A stretch of DNA of 64,000 bases, from the NCBI GenBank assembly GCA_902775485.1, contig CACYMJ010000003.1, forward strand, positions 1-64,000, in the 5' to 3' direction. Each line of letters starts with the position of its first letter. Positions within the stretch are counted from its first letter, which is position 1. Origin of the DNA: an uncultured Lachnospiraceae bacterium (GTDB taxonomy: Bacteria; Bacillota; Clostridia; Lachnospirales; Lachnospiraceae). The notes beneath the pieces were generated by a model, which saw only the letters and a program-made list of their open reading frames with translations, did not search any database and was not told the DNA's origin. A program made the translations under genes and the position numbers. Of the stretch, positions 2 to 10,178 are shown one piece after another.

Positions 2-1285
2 TTTGAGAGAGAACTGGTCACGTGCAATGTGAATCCGGCGCATATGTATCAAAAGCGCTTAAAGAGCTGTCCTTGGTGTGAAGCAGACAGCAGGTATTCA
101 GCAATGATGAATCCACAGCCACAACCACAGCCACAGCTGATACAAAAGGCATTTACTGCACCGGTGGTTACTGCACCAACATCCAGTAACATAAATTCTT
201 CGGGGGGTGTTTTATCACAAACAAATACATTATCAGGAACACCATCAGGAATTCAAGCAGGTGCGCCTTCTTGGAAGCAAAAGGTTTCATCGGTCAGTAG
301 AGGAAACCGTCTAAACTGGATCAATGCTGCAGGGTGGATAACCTTTTTTGTTAGTGTTATAGCTGTATTTATGCCGTTGGTTCAAAATGGATCAATACAT
401 TTAGATGAAACAAACATTTATCAAATAAATGTGATTAGAAGTAGCATTATTGCTCTGATTGGAGTGGCGGCGCTTTGCTTTGCAAGCCATTATTCGCAAA
501 GTCCGGCAGCAATGCTTACCATTATTTTATCCGGAATATGGGGGCTGGTATTTTCAACAACTGCGGCGACCGTTAAATATACACAGATGGGTTTTAGTAA
601 GGTAAGTGCAGATGAAACATGGAAGATATTCGGAATATTTATCTTGTTATTTGCAGGTGCAATTGCAATTCCTTCGAAAATTGCATCTTTCTTGCGAACT
701 GGCAGAAGAACTCGACAAAAAGTAACAAGAGCTCAGATAAGACAACGTATTAAACCGTTCGAAGCAATATGCATTATAGTTATGGCATTTTCAAGTATCG
801 CATGTATAGCATTGATGTGGAGCTTGGAGACGTATTATCACATCGTTAGTAATTATAATTTAATTGCGATAGCGATATGGGTAATGCCAGTTATTATATT
901 CTTAATTGAATGTTATTGTTTATCAGGTAATTCGGAATTGACATACACATGGTTCTGCGCATCAATGACATCGTTTTTTACCTGTCTTGTTCTTTGGTGG
1001 GGAAAAGTCGGAGGTGCAGGAGCTATTTTTGGATGGTTGTTTTTGGCGATAGTTGCTTGTTTATTACTTATTTTCGTGGGATCTGAAGACATAGCAGGGC
1101 TTTTAGGCGGCTTTATGTTTTTTTCATTTTTCGTATTTTTTATTGTAGGTGCATATGCAGATCTGGAAATTATGAGCAAGGGACCGTCAGCGATAGGAAG
1201 TTTTACCCATTGGCTGATCGTGGGACCTGCAATTATCATTACACTGATATCCGCATACACAACGGTAAAAGAGTTATTCCTTTGA
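2..1285 (+). CDS. C-terminal part of a kinase-associated polytopic membrane protein (5' end outside window)
   Basis: The reading frame is open from base 2, so the gene starts upstream of the window. The first visible residues end in a zinc-knuckle-like motif, NPAHMYQK followed by SCPWCEAD, almost identical to the segment that follows the kinase domain in the next gene (NPIHMYRK, TCPWCEAD). I infer that the missing N-terminus is a COG4248/YegI-like kinase domain. A Pro/Gln-rich linker follows (about residues 40-50 of the visible part), then roughly nine hydrophobic segments, so the product sits in the membrane. The stop is 51 bases before the next gene's start, in the same direction. The base composition is AT-rich compared with DNA after 10.3 kb. 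The kinase assignment rests on the shared motif only; the membrane part has no recognised family. Confidence 0.7.
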   Translation, partial: FERELVTCNVNPAHMYQKRLKSCPWCEADSRYSAMMNPQPQPQPQLIQKAFTAPVVTAPTSSNINSSGGVLSQTNTLSGTPSGIQAGAPSWKQKVSSVSRGNRLNWINAAGWITFFVSVIAVFMPLVQNGSIHLDETNIYQINVIRSSIIALIGVAALCFASHYSQSPAAMLTIILSGIWGLVFSTTAATVKYTQMGFSKVSADETWKIFGIFILLFAGAIAIPSKIASFLRTGRRTRQKVTRAQIRQRIKPFEAICIIVMAFSSIACIALMWSLETYYHIVSNYNLIAIAIWVMPVIIFLIECYCLSGNSELTYTWFCASMTSFFTCLVLWWGKVGGAGAIFGWLFLAIVACLLLIFVGSEDIAGLLGGFMFFSFFVFFIVGAYADLEIMSKGPSAIGSFTHWLIVGPAIIITLISAYTTVKELFL

Positions 1286-1336
1286 TATAGATAAAGATAC
1301 TTAATGGAGGTTTTGGGTGATTCGAAGGAGGGAAAA

Positions 1337-3766
1337 ATGATTGTAACAGGACTGCATGGTGACGTATTTGATTTGGAGCAGAAACCTTTCAGTAGTGGCG
1401 GAGAGGGCGATATATTTGGCATTAAAGGAAATGGTGATAATGTTGTTAAAATCTATCATAAAGATAGAGTAACAACTGAACTCGAAGAAAAAATAAAATA
1501 CATGACGGAGAAGCAACCCAGTAGGAATGTTATAAATCAAGTGGCATGGCCGCTGGATGCGGTTTATGATCAACCAGGTATATTCTGTGGCTTTTTTATG
1601 CCGCGTCTAAATATAGATATTTCTTTAAGTGAAGTATACAAATACCCGCCGAAGACTTCTATAACGTATCAGCAAAAGATAATAATAGCAGAGAATATCT
1701 GTGCAGTAATAAGTGCAGTTCATGAGGCCGGCTATGTATTTGGGGATTTCAACCCGTTGAATATTGGGGTTAATGTAACTACGGGGAATGTGGCTTTTTT
1801 AGATACTGATAGTTATCACATTGTGTTAGGTGACCAAAGAGCATATAGATGTAAGGTCTGCTTAGATGGTTATGTAGCACCTGAACTGTTAAAAAAATGC
1901 GAATCATATAAGAAGGACGCATACGCCAATGCACCTCTGCCCACATTTACAAAAGAAACGGATAATTTCGCACTTGCAATTCATATCTTTAAATTATTGA
2001 TGAATGGATTTACCCCATTTAACGGTATAAAAGAAACGGATTCGATTTCTACAGGTTCGCCGGGACAAGGAAATCAAGCAATTAAACGTGATAGTTACTG
2101 TTTTAAGCCGGGGAATAAACCGCAGGCGGTTGCAGTTCCACCGTTAGATGTATTGCCGGAGGAAATTGCTGATCTATTCACGAGGGCATTCATGTTTGGA
2201 AAGCTTGATCCTTCACAAAGGCCTTCCGCAAGGGAATGGCATAAAGCGTTAAGTGATTATGCAAGTGATTTGATTGGATGCGCAAGGAATCCAATACATA
2301 TGTATCGGAAAGGACTGAGCACATGTCCGTGGTGTGAGGCTGATGAAAGATATGCAAATGCAACAGCTCCATCTCTTAAGCAGATATCATTTACGAATGT
2401 GCCAAATCCGGTTGTAGCACCTGTAGTAGCGCCTTCATCACCAAGCGGTAGTACTGTAATTAATAATGGCAACTCATACAGTACGTCAGCAACTTCTGCA
2501 ATAAAAAGCGGAATTGTAAGGGCGGGAAAATGGTTTGCCGGATTGCAGCGACAAACTAAGATTGCACTGTGTTCATCAGTGGGAGCCTTAATACTGATAG
2601 CTCTTTTGATAGGTGTATTCAATAACATAATAATTCCTAATGCGAAGTATAATTCTGCTCAAAAACTTCTTGAGGCGGAACAATACAGTGAAGCATATAA
2701 CGCTTTTATAGAGTTGGAAGGTTTTGAGGACAGTGTGGCTATGGCTAATAAAGCCAAACAGTTGGAGAATGATTCGACCCATTACAATAAAGCAATTTCT
2801 CTGTTGAATGAAAATAATAAAGAAAAGGCGTTAGAAGAATTCCAGCAAGCTAACGGATATAAGGATACCGATGAACAAATAGCGAGCATTACAGAAACTA
2901 TAAATTCTGAAAAGTACGAGCAGGCAGAACAGTTATTCAGCGATGGAAATTATGAAGAGGCTATAAAAATATACAATGAGATCGTTCAATATCGAGACAG
3001 TAAAGATAAGATAAGTAGCGCTACAGATTCGATTAATAAGGGAAAATATGCCGAGGCAGAAAGTTTTTTTTCTGAGGAAAGATATGACGAAGCAATTAAC
3101 GCTTTTTCTCAGATAAAAGATTACTCTGATAGCAGGGATAGAATTGCACAGATAGAAGATATAAAACTTGAAAATAAGTATAACGAAGCGGAAAGATGCA
3201 GGGAAAACGGCGAATATGATAAAGCAGTAGAAATATATAAAGCACTTGATACATATAAAGACAGTTCCGATAAGTACATGAGATCAATGTATGATTATGC
3301 TGTGTCAAATAAAACAGCAGAGGATGTTCAGACTCAAAAGTATTTGATGGAACTTAAAAAGGTAGGGTATGAGGACTCTCAAGCGATTTATGATTCGTTG
3401 TTCTATTATACAATTGATATTATAGTCAATAATTCACAGGATGATATATCCACAAATATGACAGAGTGTGATAACAATAACGATATTTATTTGCATTATA
3501 ATTTGCATTTTACAGGAGATGAATCTCTTGTTGGCGAAACAGATCATACAGTTCATTATGAAATCTGGGGATATGCGAGAGAAGGGTTTGGTTCAATAGA
3601 AAACGTCAGAACAGGATGGAATTGGATACGTCAAAAGATGGGAGACGGAAGAGGCGCGGCAGATTTGATTTTCAAATTATCATTAGATAATAACCCTAAG
3701 ATTTTTGAAAGGGATTTAGTAATATACTGGGTTGACGGATATACTGGCGAAAGAAGATATGATTAG
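1337..3766 (+). CDS. YegI-like (COG4248-type) protein kinase with zinc knuckle, one TM segment and TPR-like repeats
   Basis: An 809-residue protein. The ATG at 1337 is chosen because AAGGAGGG lies just upstream; the earlier ATG at 1304 has no such site. The N-terminal kinase fold has a glycine-rich loop (SSGGEGDIF, residues 19-27), the VVKIY lysine K38, a catalytic loop GDFNPLN with D137 and N142, and DTD (D156) in place of DFG, so catalysis is plausible. A CPWC zinc knuckle lies near residue 330, a low-complexity linker follows, and one membrane helix is near residues 410-430. Five repeats of about 40-45 residues (pattern YxxAxxLLxxxxYxEAxxxFxxLxxYxDS) occupy about 435-650, presumably outside the membrane. 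A C-terminal domain of about 150 residues is unrecognised. Its substrate is unknown. It follows a paralogue and precedes an MBL-fold gene in the same direction. Confidence 0.8.
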   Translation: MIVTGLHGDVFDLEQKPFSSGGEGDIFGIKGNGDNVVKIYHKDRVTTELEEKIKYMTEKQPSRNVINQVAWPLDAVYDQPGIFCGFFMPRLNIDISLSEVYKYPPKTSITYQQKIIIAENICAVISAVHEAGYVFGDFNPLNIGVNVTTGNVAFLDTDSYHIVLGDQRAYRCKVCLDGYVAPELLKKCESYKKDAYANAPLPTFTKETDNFALAIHIFKLLMNGFTPFNGIKETDSISTGSPGQGNQAIKRDSYCFKPGNKPQAVAVPPLDVLPEEIADLFTRAFMFGKLDPSQRPSAREWHKALSDYASDLIGCARNPIHMYRKGLSTCPWCEADERYANATAPSLKQISFTNVPNPVVAPVVAPSSPSGSTVINNGNSYSTSATSAIKSGIVRAGKWFAGLQRQTKIALCSSVGALILIALLIGVFNNIIIPNAKYNSAQKLLEAEQYSEAYNAFIELEGFEDSVAMANKAKQLENDSTHYNKAISLLNENNKEKALEEFQQANGYKDTDEQIASITETINSEKYEQAEQLFSDGNYEEAIKIYNEIVQYRDSKDKISSATDSINKGKYAEAESFFSEERYDEAINAFSQIKDYSDSRDRIAQIEDIKLENKYNEAERCRENGEYDKAVEIYKALDTYKDSSDKYMRSMYDYAVSNKTAEDVQTQKYLMELKKVGYEDSQAIYDSLFYYTIDIIVNNSQDDISTNMTECDNNNDIYLHYNLHFTGDESLVGETDHTVHYEIWGYAREGFGSIENVRTGWNWIRQKMGDGRGAADLIFKLSLDNNPKIFERDLVIYWVDGYTGERRYD

Positions 3767-3839
3767 AAATGTCAGTAATATGGAATAAAGATAAAATCAC
3801 ATTTTAGTGGTTGGAAATAAATGACAGGAGGGTGAAAAA

Positions 3840-5753
3840 GTGAGTGATTTAGGAATTAACGGTATGTATTTAGGCCATAGCGGGTTTGTTATTGAAACGC
3901 CTAATGCAACAATGCTTTTCGACTGGTATCAAGGAAAACTTCCTACGATTAGAAGTGAGAAGCCTCTTTGTGTGTTTGTGAGCCATATTCATTCTGATCA
4001 TTTTAATCCAGAGATCTTTAATCTTGTCGGAAATCATCCCAACTCGGAAATATATCTGGGGTATGATCATAGCGTACAATCATTTGATGAAATGTTATCC
4101 AATCTTCCAAAGGCTGTTCAAGATAAAATATGTTTTTTTGATGGAGAGCAAAAGCTAATTGTTGACATAGGAGAGACGGATATTATCGTCAATACACTAC
4201 GATCTACTGATATGGGCGTGGCTTTTTTGATTCATACAGATGATAAAACATATTTCCATGCCGGTGACTTGTTTCTTATGCAAACGGTCAGCAGAGCAAA
4301 CTATCTTGCACAGTACACGGATATGTTGATAAACCATCCCGACGAGCAAGTAATGGATTATGAGACATATTTGAAAGAATGTGAAACGGAGTTTAATAGT
4401 TTTACGGAACCATTAAGAGGAAAGACTATAGACTTTGCAATGATTCCGGTAGATCCGAGATTTGGAGATGTGGCGTACAAGACTGTTAAAAGATACATGA
4501 ATATAGCAGATATAAAATTCTGGTCGCCTATACATCTTTGGGGGAAATACGAATATGTTGATGAATTTTTGACTCATCATCCAGAGTATTCTTCTAATAT
4601 GATAGGTATCTCTTCCGCAAAAGGTATAAAAAAAGGAATTCAATTAAATGAGAGGTTTGTTTTGTTTGAAGAGAAATCCTTAAAAGAGGATTCAACTGAT
4701 ATATTGCAACAGCGAAATTGGAGCAAGAGCATAGAAAATGAAGAATCTGCTTGGGGACCGACTTCACGGGATACTTTTAAATGGGGTAATCCATCTGACT
4801 ATGTGGTGTTTAATTCCATGACTGATAATCCAAAGACAGGAGATGAAAGAAACTTTGTAAGGATACGTAAGTATTCGATGGATACCAAGTTCTCAGATAA
4901 AGTAGAATTAGAAGTAGGTGAAGAATACGAAGTGGCGGTATGGTTTGACAATAATGCAAAGCCTGAGCTGAATAAAAAAGAAAATGGTGGAGTTGGTATT
5001 GCTGAAAATGTCAGACTTCGTATAGAGTGTCCTGAAAAAGTTAAAGGGAAAACCAACGCTGTCATTAAAGGAATAATATCCTCCACCAACTCAAAGCCGG
5101 AAGAAATATGGGATACTGCATATGCATATACGGGATCAACAGTATTACTCAGATATGTGCCTAACTCTGCAATAATTCATAGTTTAGGAACTATAAATGG
5201 TCAGATTCTGTCATCTAAGTCGATGTTTGGAAAAGATGGCGTTAAATTGGGCTATTGGGAAGATTTATGGGGAACTGTCCCCGGTGGAAGTGAATATGCA
5301 GGATACATTACATTTCGCATGAAAGTCGATCAACCTGGATTTAAGCTTTCTTCTTTGGTATCCATAAAAGATAAAACAAATTATCAAAGAAGCATTGTTG
5401 CAAAACCGGGAGATATTTTAGAGTTTCAATTATCATATGAAAATACAGGAACAATAAATCAGAAAGCAATAAAAGCATATGATTATCTACCGGATGGACT
5501 GGTGTATATAAAAGGGTCAACGTCATTTGAAACAGTTTTTGGAGAAAACAAGACATCTGACAATCTGTTTAATGGAGGCATGAACCTTGGGGATTATGAG
5601 CCGGGGGATTGGGTTATAGTCAGATACCAAGTAAAGGTTGAGGATAATAAAAAGTATTTTCCAGAAGGGGATACAGTAATATACAATGATGCATCTATTG
5701 CGACAGCTAATGGAACAGGACGGAATATAGCGGAAATTATTGTTCGTAGATAA
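3840..5753 (+). CDS. Metallo-beta-lactamase-fold protein with C-terminal DUF11-like domain
   Basis: A 637-residue protein starting at GTG, with AGGAGG about ten bases upstream. The N-terminal half is an MBL fold of the UlaG-like type: the metal motif HIHSDH (H49, H51, D53, H54), a later FHAGDL metal/aspartate motif near residue 140, and PIHLWG near 230. About residues 350-500 are unassigned. The C-terminus (about 510-637) resembles DUF11 repeats found in surface or secreted proteins (a stretch with FQLSYENTGT and YDYLPDGL). There is no signal peptide, so an extracellular-type tail on an apparently cytoplasmic enzyme is odd. The gene lies between a kinase and a membrane protein in a co-directional set and probably shares their transcript. 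The substrate (small molecule or nucleic acid) cannot be told from the sequence. Confidence 0.75.
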   Translation: MSDLGINGMYLGHSGFVIETPNATMLFDWYQGKLPTIRSEKPLCVFVSHIHSDHFNPEIFNLVGNHPNSEIYLGYDHSVQSFDEMLSNLPKAVQDKICFFDGEQKLIVDIGETDIIVNTLRSTDMGVAFLIHTDDKTYFHAGDLFLMQTVSRANYLAQYTDMLINHPDEQVMDYETYLKECETEFNSFTEPLRGKTIDFAMIPVDPRFGDVAYKTVKRYMNIADIKFWSPIHLWGKYEYVDEFLTHHPEYSSNMIGISSAKGIKKGIQLNERFVLFEEKSLKEDSTDILQQRNWSKSIENEESAWGPTSRDTFKWGNPSDYVVFNSMTDNPKTGDERNFVRIRKYSMDTKFSDKVELEVGEEYEVAVWFDNNAKPELNKKENGGVGIAENVRLRIECPEKVKGKTNAVIKGIISSTNSKPEEIWDTAYAYTGSTVLLRYVPNSAIIHSLGTINGQILSSKSMFGKDGVKLGYWEDLWGTVPGGSEYAGYITFRMKVDQPGFKLSSLVSIKDKTNYQRSIVAKPGDILEFQLSYENTGTINQKAIKAYDYLPDGLVYIKGSTSFETVFGENKTSDNLFNGGMNLGDYEPGDWVIVRYQVKVEDNKKYFPEGDTVIYNDASIATANGTGRNIAEIIVRR

Positions 5754-5767
5754 TACAGAATTGCTCC

Positions 5768-6850
5768 ATGAAGGCGGATATGAAACGCATTGTTATTAGT
5801 GGTTTTAGTGAAAAAATACGTAATTGGATTCTTATAACCAAAATAGAAGGATTCTGCCATAGACATAGCTTATTCTTAAGAAAAACTTTCTATATTGTTG
5901 GGACGTTAGCTATTGTGTTCAGCTGTATAGAGGTACCCAGAGAAATATATAGAATGGTTCGGTCTCATGAGTATTATAGCAATCTTGATAATGAGAATTA
6001 CTGGCCTGTGCAAGATTATGATGGGAATAATGTGAATATATTTGAATATGAGCATTATTTAGAAAGCTGCGGTGCGACGGACATTATAAAAGGTTATTAT
6101 TACAAAGACAATGGGAATACTGCCATTTGTTACGATTATAATGTCGGAAATGTAAGATTCGTTTTAGATAATGTAATAACGCCGGACTACCTAAGCACGT
6201 ATAATAGTGGGTCACGTAGGATTCTTGTACAAAGCAGGCTGTCTGTTTATGATGGCAACTACACCTATATAACGGATTATGTGGCGGGTGAGAACTATGT
6301 GATGGATTATCGTAGTCCCATGTGGGTGGAAAAAAGAGTATTTGAATCGCTTCGCACAATTATGGATCGTTTGCGAGATGATGCGTATAAATACTCTGAG
6401 TGTCCGTTTGATGATATGGACATACCTCATTATGTAGAGGATGTAAATGGTAATCATAGATGGCATCAAACCCTTTTTGATGTTGATGAAATATCCGATG
6501 CATCAGCAGATAATAAAACGATTATACCAGACAATGAATATACAAATGCAGATACTGGGTGGCCTGGATATTATGCTTTGGAAAATGGAAATTATATCGA
6601 GGTGTTCGATACTTATTCGGACGGCACCATTTATTTTGGAATGTCAACAATGAGCGCAGCGGGTGATGAATTTATTTACAATGAGTATACTGTGCCGTTT
6701 AATGACACTGATACGAAAGAGATTCAGATAGAATACCAGTCAGGCATATACGAAATTTTCAAATTAGAGGATGATGGGATATCGGTATCATTGAGTAATG
6801 GTATGCCGGGGGCAAATAATGGCTTTTATAAGAGGACGGCATCTTATTAG
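5768..6850 (+). CDS. Membrane-anchored protein of unknown function
   Basis: About 360 residues. A single hydrophobic segment lies near residues 38-58 (around the stretch FYIVGTLAIVFSC), with a basic N-terminus before it. The rest is a soluble domain rich in Asp, Tyr and Asn, predicted outside the cytoplasm. No catalytic motif or family is recognised. The start is uncertain: ATG 5768 and ATG 5780 are both possible, the second having AAGGCGG a few bases upstream. It lies 14 bases after the MBL-fold gene and 14 before the PolC-like gene, so translation coupling in one operon is likely. The codon and base composition is AT-rich like its neighbours. Confidence 0.6.
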   Translation: MKADMKRIVISGFSEKIRNWILITKIEGFCHRHSLFLRKTFYIVGTLAIVFSCIEVPREIYRMVRSHEYYSNLDNENYWPVQDYDGNNVNIFEYEHYLESCGATDIIKGYYYKDNGNTAICYDYNVGNVRFVLDNVITPDYLSTYNSGSRRILVQSRLSVYDGNYTYITDYVAGENYVMDYRSPMWVEKRVFESLRTIMDRLRDDAYKYSECPFDDMDIPHYVEDVNGNHRWHQTLFDVDEISDASADNKTIIPDNEYTNADTGWPGYYALENGNYIEVFDTYSDGTIYFGMSTMSAAGDEFIYNEYTVPFNDTDTKEIQIEYQSGIYEIFKLEDDGISVSLSNGMPGANNGFYKRTASY

Positions 6851-6864
6851 GAGGAGACGTGGGT

Positions 6865-8196
6865 ATGTATGTAACACGGATTCAGGAAGCAGATAAGAAA
6901 CTTCGGGATAGGTGTATGGCATCGGCGAAAAGATTATATGGAGAGAATCTCCCGGATATTGTTAAAGTAAGATTGGACAGAGAGCTTTTAGCTATATCTC
7001 AGTGTAACCATGCCACTCATTATATTATTGCTGCTGCAATGGCGGATTGTTCGTTGTACAAAGGCTGCCATATCACAACACGGGGAACAATAGGCTCATC
7101 ATTGGTTGCGTTTTTCTCGGGTATAACAGAGATAAATCCTTTAGAGGCACATTATCGGTGCCCGTCATGTCATTATTTTGAATTATCAGAGAATAAGAGT
7201 GAATACGATTATGTGACGGGATATGATTTGCCGGAGAAAAAATGCCCTGTATGCGGAAAACTTCTCATTGGTGATGGGGCGAATATAATGTCCGAAATGT
7301 CGATGGGAACGGATATGAGACGTGAGCCAGATGTTATTATGAATTTCTCTCCAGAGGTTATTCAAGATGTTATCGACGCATTAAGAGAGATGTTTGGCAA
7401 AGACAATGTAATAGGTGCGGGCGTTTCGGTAAATGCTGAAGATGGGACAAGGAAGACGGGCGTTCATCCTGGTGGGATCTTTATTGTCCCGGCACAAGTT
7501 GAGATAAGTGATATAACTGGTCTGCGAAATGATGTTCGGGATGATGGGATTCATCTCATGGTTACAGAGAGACATTATCGTGATATGGAAAAATACTTGA
7601 AAAAGTATGATGTTCTTCCAAAGCCGGAGCTGGGTGTTCTCCATGAAATGGAAATTACAACAGGAGTTCCGGTTAAGTCCATATCAATGCATGAAAGTGA
7701 GTTATTTGACATTGATAATACGGACGAGAAGAATAGTTTTCTTATTGACGGGCCGGATTGGAAGGCATTTGGTATAGTACATCCACAAGGCTTTATAGAT
7801 ATGGTCAGAATGTTCGGTCTTGCTCATACCGATTTCTTTGATGGAAATGGTGATATAAGTGCAGAAAACATACTGGAAGCTAAGAGGCATGGGATATACT
7901 GTCGTGACGATATTTTGGAGACTTTGCTCCGTAAGGGCTGCGATATTCATACATCATATACTATAATGAACAGCATAAGTCGAGGAAAAGGTGTAGATGA
8001 AACGGCGGAAAAGACGATGCATGGCTGTGGTATGTCCGATGATTACGTTGGATTCTGTAAACGGATCAAATATCTTTTCCCACGCTCTATGATGGCTTCA
8101 TACGCATTAGTAAACTGGCGCATGGCTTTCTATAAAGCAAATTATCCGCAGGAGTTTGAGAAGGTAATGTCAGCGTGGAATCGAAAAGAGGAATAA
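6865..8196 (+). CDS. Free-standing PolC-type DNA polymerase III core homologue, probably catalytically impaired
   Basis: A 443-residue protein. ATG 6865 is preferred to GTG 6859 because GGAGGAG lies eight bases upstream of the ATG. It matches only the polymerase core of the replicative PolC (normally about 1,400 residues): the SRGSVGSS motif appears as TRGTIGSS, a four-Cys zinc site is present (C99, C102, C127, C130), and HPGG, RKGKG-like (SRGKG) and FPKAHAAAY-like (FPRSMMASY) motifs follow in PolC order. The PHP, OB and exonuclease parts are absent and the fingers are shortened. The palm motif PDIDLNFS reads PDVIMNFS, keeping D156 but replacing the second aspartate with I158; the third catalytic Asp (KLDILG in PolC) is probably D249 (KYDVLP). 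Polymerisation is therefore doubtful. It is the last well-formed gene of the kinase/MBL set. A regulatory or DNA-binding role is inference. Confidence 0.75.
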   Translation: MYVTRIQEADKKLRDRCMASAKRLYGENLPDIVKVRLDRELLAISQCNHATHYIIAAAMADCSLYKGCHITTRGTIGSSLVAFFSGITEINPLEAHYRCPSCHYFELSENKSEYDYVTGYDLPEKKCPVCGKLLIGDGANIMSEMSMGTDMRREPDVIMNFSPEVIQDVIDALREMFGKDNVIGAGVSVNAEDGTRKTGVHPGGIFIVPAQVEISDITGLRNDVRDDGIHLMVTERHYRDMEKYLKKYDVLPKPELGVLHEMEITTGVPVKSISMHESELFDIDNTDEKNSFLIDGPDWKAFGIVHPQGFIDMVRMFGLAHTDFFDGNGDISAENILEAKRHGIYCRDDILETLLRKGCDIHTSYTIMNSISRGKGVDETAEKTMHGCGMSDDYVGFCKRIKYLFPRSMMASYALVNWRMAFYKANYPQEFEKVMSAWNRKEE

Positions 8197-8334: not shown

Positions 8335-8982
8335 ATGCTTACCGATAATGAATGTTGGAGTTGGATGCATAGTACATTTATAGAGCATTTTTATGACCTT
8401 CTTAGGAATAACGGTTTGAGAACAAACCTGAATTCAAAAAGTTGGCTTCGTTTTCTTGACGACTACGCCCTTTGGTCTGGAAATGGTACTCCGTGCAGTT
8501 TGATTGAGGAACCGTGGCTTTTAGATGATAATCTTGATGACCATTACGAGGATAAGTTTTGGCTTGCTGCTATTCGACCTGCTCGAGGGTATGGTGCGAC
8601 TTCCTCCGCTTTTGTTTTTGAAAATGAGGCTTCGATTCATGATAAATCGCAGTTTTTCAAGCTCATGGAAGCATTTCGCATTACAACGGAATATTTTGAG
8701 CCTCTTCCAGAGGGAATCATTGCACCTGACAAGCATTGGACGCATACCTATACCGGAGGATGTACATATGTCATAGGATATAATTGTGTGGATGATGGCG
8801 GACTCCTCGCTGAATCTGATCCTGTTGGGAAAACGTATATCTTAAATAATGACCTTGGATTAAAAGCTGTCGTTACAATAACAGAGGACAGAAGAAAACA
8901 GGATCGTGGTCAAATGGATTATGATGACTTCTATCCTATGGGGGAATATCTTTCAGAAGGTAATATTGAAGGATATGGATGA
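8335..8982 (+). CDS. Hypothetical protein
   Basis: A 215-residue frame with no recognised family. It is acidic and rich in Trp and Tyr, with no membrane segment or signal peptide. No convincing ribosome site precedes ATG 8335 and no better start exists before the upstream in-frame stop at 8287, so the 5' end may be damaged or the gene may be poorly translated. It lies between the PolC-like gene and mobile-element debris, and its base composition matches the AT-rich island. It may be mobile-element cargo. Confidence 0.45.
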   Translation: MLTDNECWSWMHSTFIEHFYDLLRNNGLRTNLNSKSWLRFLDDYALWSGNGTPCSLIEEPWLLDDNLDDHYEDKFWLAAIRPARGYGATSSAFVFENEASIHDKSQFFKLMEAFRITTEYFEPLPEGIIAPDKHWTHTYTGGCTYVIGYNCVDDGGLLAESDPVGKTYILNNDLGLKAVVTITEDRRKQDRGQMDYDDFYPMGEYLSEGNIEGYG

Positions 8983-9470: not shown

Positions 9471-10178
9471 ATGTCTGAAAGAGTTTACCGGACAGCCATC
9501 TATGCAAGGTTGTCCAAAGAAGATGGAGACAAGGCAGAGAGTAACAGCATAGTAAGCCAGAAGTCCATGTGCGAGGAGTACATCGCAAAACACAGCGACC
9601 TTGAACTGGTTGAGACATTCGTTGATGACGGATACAGCGGAGTTGACTTCAACAGACCTGATTTCAGACGGATGGAAGAAGCAGTGCGGGAAAAACGCAT
9701 TGATGCCATTGTCTGCAAGGATCTTAGCCGATTTTCAAGGAATTACATTGAGGGCGGCAGGTATCTGGAGAAGATATTTCCGGCATTTGGCATTCGTTTT
9801 ATCGCAATCAATGACGGATATGATACCCTGACCGGAGATCCCTCGTCGGATTCCTTTATCATCCCATTTAAGAACCTCATAAATGATACCTATTGCAAGA
9901 ATATATCCGTGAAAATACGGACCAACCTTGATGTTAAGCGTCGCAAGGGTGAGTATGTGGGTTCTTATGCTCCCTATGGATATATGAAGAATCCAAAGGA
10001 TAAGAACAGGCTGATCGTAGATGAATATGCCGGGGATATTGTAGCATACTGCGGTGACCGCTATGCGCGGCTTGCCCATAACGGATGGGTACAGAAGGCA
10101 ATAAGCAACAAGAGATTAGCCGATTTTGGACTAATCTCTATGCTGGACTACTACACCGTAAGGTGTGTTACTTGTTAA
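9471..10178 (+). pseudogene. Large serine recombinase truncated and fused to a group II intron RT C-terminus
   Basis: The frame starts at ATG 9471 behind CGGAGG. About the first 190 residues are a serine recombinase: the resolvase catalytic domain (YARLSKED with the nucleophilic Ser, DDGYSG, KDLSRFSRNY) and the beginning of the recombinase domain (APYGYMKNP, DEYAGDIV). After about base 10040 the residues change to the C-terminal end of a group II intron reverse transcriptase (pattern SNKRLADFGLISMLDYY), which then stops and runs into intron RNA domains V/VI. The DNA-binding half of the recombinase (some 300 residues) is missing and does not resume downstream. It cannot be a working integrase. 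Either an intron inserted here and lost its body, or a deletion joined two elements. Confidence 0.7.

Follow-up and report, generated by a model that had tools for sequence, protein, structure and literature searches.

DNA polymerases of the C family are described, in the accessible parts of two surveys (PMC3919608, PMC12926913), as replicases or repair polymerases, and the same parts describe PolCs without the exonuclease insertion as well as inactive Y-family polymerases, among them ImuB, an inactive polymerase paralogue that acts together with DnaE2. A stand-alone, inactive PolC core is found neither in those parts of the surveys nor in searches of the open-access literature (subscription papers fell mostly outside the scope). 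A second system close to the locus presented here is the TerY-P triad, formed by a kinase, a vWA protein and a PP2C phosphatase, which the excerpts available of PMC11090510 and PMC4978471 associate with restriction and the processing of DNA. The locus holds a gene for a stand-alone PolC-like core of 443 residues, probably inactive, and a related short core is encoded among defence-type genes in another genus; part of the replication machinery thus seems to have been put to a different use. The reading that we prefer, with a probability of roughly 0.6, is that this protein is a PolC core with a broken active site, selected as a non-enzymatic part of a stress or defence island linked to phosphorylation and probably mobile.

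The window (the whole stretch of 64,000 nucleotides that was analysed) encodes this protein, hereafter P0001, at 6865..8196 of the forward strand, on which all the other features of the window operon also lie. The reading frame is intact up to the stop at 8196 and begins either at a GTG (6859) or at an ATG (6865), the latter located 14 bases past the stop of an upstream gene for a 360-aa protein and preceded by a ribosome site, AGGAGGAG, that overlaps this stop. Two NCBIfam PolC models match it with E-values of 1e-89 and 7e-88 (302 and 296 bits, below both of the full-length PolC cut-offs of 873 and 1043 bits), Pfam DNA_pol3_alpha with 2e-24, and the solved PolCs 3f2b and 9qpc with 5e-60 and 4e-54; the matches to PolC models and structures span nearly the full length of the protein. 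An earlier, sequence-only reading of this DNA had noticed PolC core motifs in order over 443 residues, with the exonuclease and PHP parts absent, and that description holds. Since the alignment to 9qpc comprises only residues 843-1321 of the 1474 in the chain, P0001 lacks the N-terminal, OB, PHP/exonuclease and C-terminal parts, and the alignment to 9qpc and 3f2b places its C-terminal end within the fingers, ahead of the tandem HhH part (domain order according to the accessible sections of PMC12592400 and PMC3919608). What is left amounts to about one third of the length of a PolC and is not encoded in a replication context.

Within this core, the zinc-site cysteines C99, C102, C127 and C130 (7159..7254) are all present, as the sequence-only reading had stated, and the third palm aspartate (LDILG in PolC; D249 here, 7609..7611), which we take to be catalytic, is kept. 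The change of the palm D-x-D to D156-V-I158 (7330..7338) is likewise borne out by the alignment, where the PDID of PolC reads PDVI, so that two of the three palm aspartates (D156 and D249) are retained and an isoleucine (I158) stands in place of the other. The polymerase catalytic residues of E. faecium PolC are D972 and D974 according to the available part of PMC12592400, and through a 22-residue numbering offset they would correspond to positions 156 and 158. The earlier description had missed a deletion at residues 186-196 (7420..7452): about 32-34 PolC residues are absent between G186 and R196, that is, between the palm halves, and because the palm of PolC is split by the thumb (accessible part of PMC12592400), the thumb of P0001 is gone. 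With thumb, HhH and OB parts all absent, the DNA-binding role initially proposed becomes less likely than supposed, and P0001 is unlikely either to bind DNA or to act as a polymerase. The loss of active-site residues is well supported, and a loss of catalysis in the cell would presumably go with it.

A structure model of P0001 (AlphaFold2, on a six-row alignment of P0001 and five PolCs) reached a pLDDT of 67.9 and a pTM of 0.71, with pLDDT below 50 at residues 73-75, 112-119, 144-152, 186-202, 221-232, 283-305 and 325-330; an earlier model from a three-row alignment had been poor (pLDDT 53.3). The later model fits PolC 3f2c with a TM score of 0.84 over the query, against 0.53-0.65 for DnaE structures. 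This agrees with the PolC palm/finger fold that had been predicted, as a consistency check and not as independent proof, since five of the six alignment rows are PolCs.

Is P0001 simply a fragment of the polymerase of its own host? The sequence-only reading, which had proposed a repurposed, perhaps inactive protein, had left room for a recent truncation of the resident polC and for the lack of homologues with the same limits in other genomes. The host has its PolC elsewhere, in an open frame of 1,529 aa on contig C18, and the identity of this PolC to P0001 is 41% and 29% over two stretches, which rules out a recent truncation, and another genus encodes a 404-aa orthologue (P0002, on contig C10 of genome G261), 45% identical to P0001, that agrees with it in both ends and in the internal deletion; the repurposing is thus well supported. 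P0002 has lost the zinc knuckle (three of the four cysteines), reads PEIV for PDID and YNLC for LDIL, which leaves none of the three palm aspartates (D>E, D>V, D>N), and has SARSG for GSRGS; because of the E, V and N at the aspartate positions and of SARSG, it seems unlikely to hold metal ions. Both proteins keep the fingers residues R347-D349 and also Y403, F405 and Y413, which by the 22-residue offset are the counterparts of Y1274, F1276 and Y1284, residues of PolC that move to take up an inhibitor (PMC12592400, in the part accessible).

An alignment of 43 PolC rows has 178 columns with an identity of 97% or more; P0001 keeps 91 of them (11 gaps) and P0002 64 (19 gaps), 54 are kept by both alike, and at 29 the two share the same new residue. 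For this count and for the first of the two trees given below, 43 of 48 PolC loci were used, the five with an incomplete frame or core being excluded. Over 387 aligned codons, the fraction that differs between the two genes is 0.41 at codon position 1, 0.31 at position 2 and 0.62 at position 3. Both real frames are open (0 stops), against a mean of 13.2 stops, with no stop-free run in 500, in a neutral simulation under a simple model at half the observed divergence of the pair, and maintenance of the reading frame is well supported. These figures bear on the idea that P0001 is a truncated, functionless duplicate, derived from either PolC or a plasmid polymerase, that is decaying and heading for loss. 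Very long branches, lost catalytic residues, a serine recombinase part 1.3 kb downstream and a patchy presence (in none of 36 other genomes of its own genus, bar a weak partial match of PolC strength) would be in line with decay, whereas an intact ORF with a ribosome site, an orthologue with identical ends and deletion, no stops where about 13 were expected, differences mostly at third codon positions and 29 identical new residues at PolC-conserved columns would not, and decay appears quite improbable. Two trees unite the pair in one clade (support 100/100), whose stem measures 10 changes per column in one tree and 6.5 in the other; the first tree places it inside the clostridial PolCs, with a long-branch warning, and the second leaves its attachment open.

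How widespread are such cores? Only two members of this short-core family, P0001 and P0002, were found, so that its conservation rests on one pair. Searches with a central fragment or a two-row alignment covered 392 genomes of the order, 2 of the G261 genus, 37 of the own genus, 397 of the family and 391 of the class (overlapping draws), and in them only the genome of the window (G000) and G261 score above the level of full PolCs. The other 17 of the 19 matching genomes in the order search gave E-values of 2e-11 to 8e-9, mostly from long PolC frames, although three frames of 526-930 aa are among their matches. Within the 37 genomes of the own genus, the short core is present in that of the window alone, the other 36 lacking it; the partial match mentioned above, from G651, has an E-value of 5.5e-11 and lies in an 874-aa frame. 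A full-query search of 299 family genomes placed only G261 above PolC level among the matches listed. By tblastn, P0001 matched 22 phage records (best 20 listed) and 19 plasmid records, and P0002 matched 89 (best 50) and 290 (best 40), respectively; the records listed are PolC- or DnaE-type where annotated or alignable, none exceeds about 32% identity, and a phage or plasmid gene family for the two cores, considered as a candidate, has no member among them. Scans of viral contigs with P0001 and with the two-row alignment gave no member either, which is weak evidence because the same scan also missed PolCs with PolC queries; a DNA pattern search of viral contigs returned three PolCs, which were confirmed. 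A scan of genome contigs gave three loci, one of them a DnaE and the others long PolCs of 1275 and 1438 aa.

The genes upstream of P0001 follow one another with gaps of 14-73 bases. They encode the C-terminal part of a kinase-type protein (29..1285; frame open to the contig start), a protein kinase with a CPWC motif, a hydrophobic stretch (by eye) and TPR repeats (1304..3766; Pfam score of 28.9 bits against a cut-off of 31.7), a fusion of an MBL-fold hydrolase, a rare domain of ~190 aa (residues ~301-497), for which the label WGP is coined here, and DUF11 (3840..5753), and the 360-aa protein (5768..6850), with no family match and a hydrophobic stretch near its N-terminus (by eye). Downstream, at a distance of 138 bases, there is a gene for a 215-aa protein (8335..8982) with no family match in the Pfam/NCBIfam scan. 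The WGP-encoding gene is therefore one gene away from that of P0001, not directly adjacent. No Pfam or NCBIfam model matches the WGP stretch, and when 200 family genomes were searched with the MBL protein (97 match at E<=1e-10), no match past residue 299 appeared outside the genome of the window among the matches listed. The WGP domain is also seen in hypothetical proteins of three actinobacterial plasmids. PADLOC gives no match for P0001 or for its MBL, 360-aa and 215-aa neighbours, and two marginal ones for the window kinase (E 0.0009 and 0.004). GC content is 36-42% in the operon and the first 10 kb, whereas the remainder of the window ranges over 42-52% and mostly over 46-51%. A 235-aa protein with a serine recombinase N-terminal domain is encoded at 9471-10178, 1.3 kb downstream of P0001, and its position near the GC boundary perhaps marks the edge of an island.

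This operon probably extends beyond the window. Contig C27 ends within a kinase N-terminus (50% identity, E 2e-12) and the window begins within a kinase C-terminus; because of this half kinase at each end, together with the low GC of both (37-43% at the C27 end near the window, mostly 46-51% beyond), the two probably adjoin, with ~250 residues absent between them. The operon would then continue into a TerY-P-like kinase/PP2C/vWA set on C27, whose genes encode a TraG/HerA-type ATPase, a kinase, a vWA protein, a PP2C phosphatase, a transglutaminase-like protein, Syd/SUKH-2 and a Tox-HNH-HHH nuclease. Those for vWA, PP2C and kinase lie together at 2447-5845 of the C27 stretch (L099), the kinase having a C-terminal Cys motif and a Pfam score below the cut-off of its model. 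PADLOC assigns no TerY-P name to these three proteins, and its release perhaps lacks such models. On the same contig, the Tox-HNH-HHH gene adjoins that of Syd/SUKH-2 as a pair of the toxin-immunity type (L099 195-1476).

In G261, the gene of P0002 stands directly before one for a WGP-domain protein (a lipoprotein by eye) whose WGP domain is 38% identical to that of the window over 193 aa, and a homologue of the window MBL protein (37% over 285 aa), with MORN repeats, is encoded ~21 kb away on the other strand. The sequence-only reading had proposed that P0001 works with the adjacent kinases and the MBL protein and that such cores would recur beside genes of this kind. This proposal is borne out in part: the MBL/WGP half finds an echo in the relatives near P0002 and the kinase half does not, as a search of G261 for relatives of the window kinase gives none at E<=0.001, and the recurrence is limited to two genomes. 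PP2C is present in the G261 stretch, and no vWA was seen among the proteins scanned there; within ~27 kb there are also three TIR proteins and a PDC-M12A/AbiLi-like ATPase, and GC content is 36-37% throughout. Directly upstream of P0002 lies the gene for a 262-aa FtsZ-like protein (L037 13216-14004, G261:C10), which matches Pfam Tubulin with an E-value of 3e-7 (31.4 bits, cut-off 33) and NCBIfam ftsZ with 7e-7, far under the cut-off. It is shorter than FtsZ and may, like the PolC core, be an essential machine in reduced form. The genome of the window (84% complete assembly) has no relative of it at E<=0.001, and the FtsZ-like protein was accordingly rejected as a partner common to both loci; in 260 family genomes, a draw evidently without G261, five weak matches (E 2e-5 to 9e-4) are probably FtsZ. 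Other observations on this contig are a 557-aa protein (L037 11505-13178) in which a repeat of ~110 aa occurs about three times and which has no family above cut-off, a single copy of that repeat at L037 4051-4524, and two pairs of similar frames, L037 19232-20029 with L038 6121-7077 (about 90% identical, ~7 kb apart) and L038 2581-3123 with 7153-7665, perhaps a recent duplication.

The palm of PolC has a Pol-beta-type fold. Could it, freed from the DNA-binding parts, act like a nucleotidyltransferase and make a nucleotide that signals to effectors of the TIR or CARF type? P0001 keeps D156 and D249, and the G261 stretch encodes, besides its TIR proteins, a protein with a Card1/CARF-PD-(D/E)xK-type nuclease part. 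P0002, with its E, V and N at the aspartates and SARSG for GSRGS, speaks against such a signal maker, and so do the CARF half of that nuclease, which is unmatched, and the window operon, in which Pfam finds no TIR or CARF protein and the better of the PADLOC matches (CARF-HEPN, E 0.0009, in the repeat region of the kinase) is marginal; the idea is very improbable. Some nucleotide-related activity of P0001 is formally possible, given that two aspartates and R347-D349, Y403, F405 and Y413 are kept.

The preferred reading, in which the core is coupled to the island as its bait or its sensor, is favoured because the loss of active-site residues, thumb, HhH and OB together with the upkeep of palm and fingers fits a binding protein better than an enzyme, and because the neighbours are signalling and hydrolase domains, located in G261 among defence-type genes. 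The palm/fingers scaffold would bind something that is normally met by the replicative polymerase, be it a hostile protein directed against PolC, a component protein of the replisome or a nucleotide. Altered binding would then be turned into a response by the MBL protein, the kinase and the phosphatase of the operon. A decoy or guard for anti-replisome proteins and a sensor of the replication or nucleotide state deserve about equal weight, and the binding role, the coupling to the kinase module and the mobility are inferred. Points against this reading are the restriction of the family to one pair, the two aspartates that P0001 keeps, the kinase that is not common to G261, the gene that stands between P0001 and WGP, the PADLOC scan in which P0001 and its MBL, 360-aa and 215-aa neighbours stay without a match, and the link to C27, which comes from two half kinases. 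In a more specific form, the dead PolC core, joined in G261 by the FtsZ-like GTPase remnant, would be an 'integrated decoy' for phage or competitor proteins that attack essential machines of the host, and the alarm would be raised by the kinase/phosphatase, the MBL protein and proteins of the TIR type. Its appeal as bait comes from the remnant directly upstream of P0002, which puts two essential machines, both reduced, side by side; this is a single case, and the form is rather doubtful. If the cores do act as baits or sensors, they would show that the replication fork is a target which bacteria watch over, and a dead copy could be used to fish for anti-replisome proteins. The pair also frames a simple question: does the dead core bind a partner of live PolC?

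Compared with known systems, P0001 shares with PolC (PRK00448; 3f2b, 9qpc) the palm/fingers sequence over nearly all its 443 residues, the zinc cysteines, the order of motifs and the modelled fold, and differs from it in the absence of the N-terminal, OB, PHP, exonuclease, thumb and HhH parts and in the replaced second palm aspartate. A PolC-like protein annotated as hypothetical is encoded by plasmid p3 of Cetobacterium somerae (WP_330112558, 914 aa, L036 3768-6512). It is PolC-related, lacks the HhH end, stops no more than about 30 residues from where the short cores end, shares with them an EIIxDVV-like stretch (by eye) and, like P0002, has no zinc cysteines; a clade of this protein with P0001 and P0002, a grouping chosen after inspecting the alignment, is not rejected by the AU test (p-AU 0.46). 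The view that PolC does not occur as a short paralogue has to be qualified accordingly, although this protein keeps all three aspartates (PDLD, LDIL), the thumb and a long N-terminal part, has helicase genes in the same stretch and gives the impression of a distinct type of plasmid replicase. These likenesses would suit an accessory or mobile-element polymerase derived from such a replicase, which still makes or recently made nucleic acid. However, the short cores have neither thumb nor N-terminal part, their aspartates number two in P0001 and none in P0002, and no helicase or replicase gene is found among the neighbours scanned in the window and G261, though C27 has its TraG/HerA-type ATPase. 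As an account of present function this is improbable, and it may instead describe the origin of the cores.

ImuB and other inactive Y-family polymerases resemble P0001 as polymerase paralogues that have lost catalytic residues and are kept for another role; ImuB belongs to another polymerase family and, as far as the excerpts on it go, is located in DnaE2 cassettes. It also offers a precedent (PMC3919608 and PMC12926913, in their accessible parts) for a dominant-negative regulator that would slow the PolC or replisome of the host under stress, and P0001 keeps much of the palm/fingers sequence. With the N-terminal, OB and HhH/C-terminal parts absent, however, competition with PolC would need the palm/fingers surface alone; this alternative seems unlikely. 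TerY-P triad islands, reportedly described by Anantharaman et al. in 2012, resemble contig C27, which has vWA, PP2C and a Cys-motif kinase side by side, together with Tox-HNH and a TraG/HerA-type ATPase; the present island, provided that C27 and the window adjoin, differs from them in also encoding the PolC-like protein, the MBL-WGP-DUF11 fusion and two more kinase-type genes.
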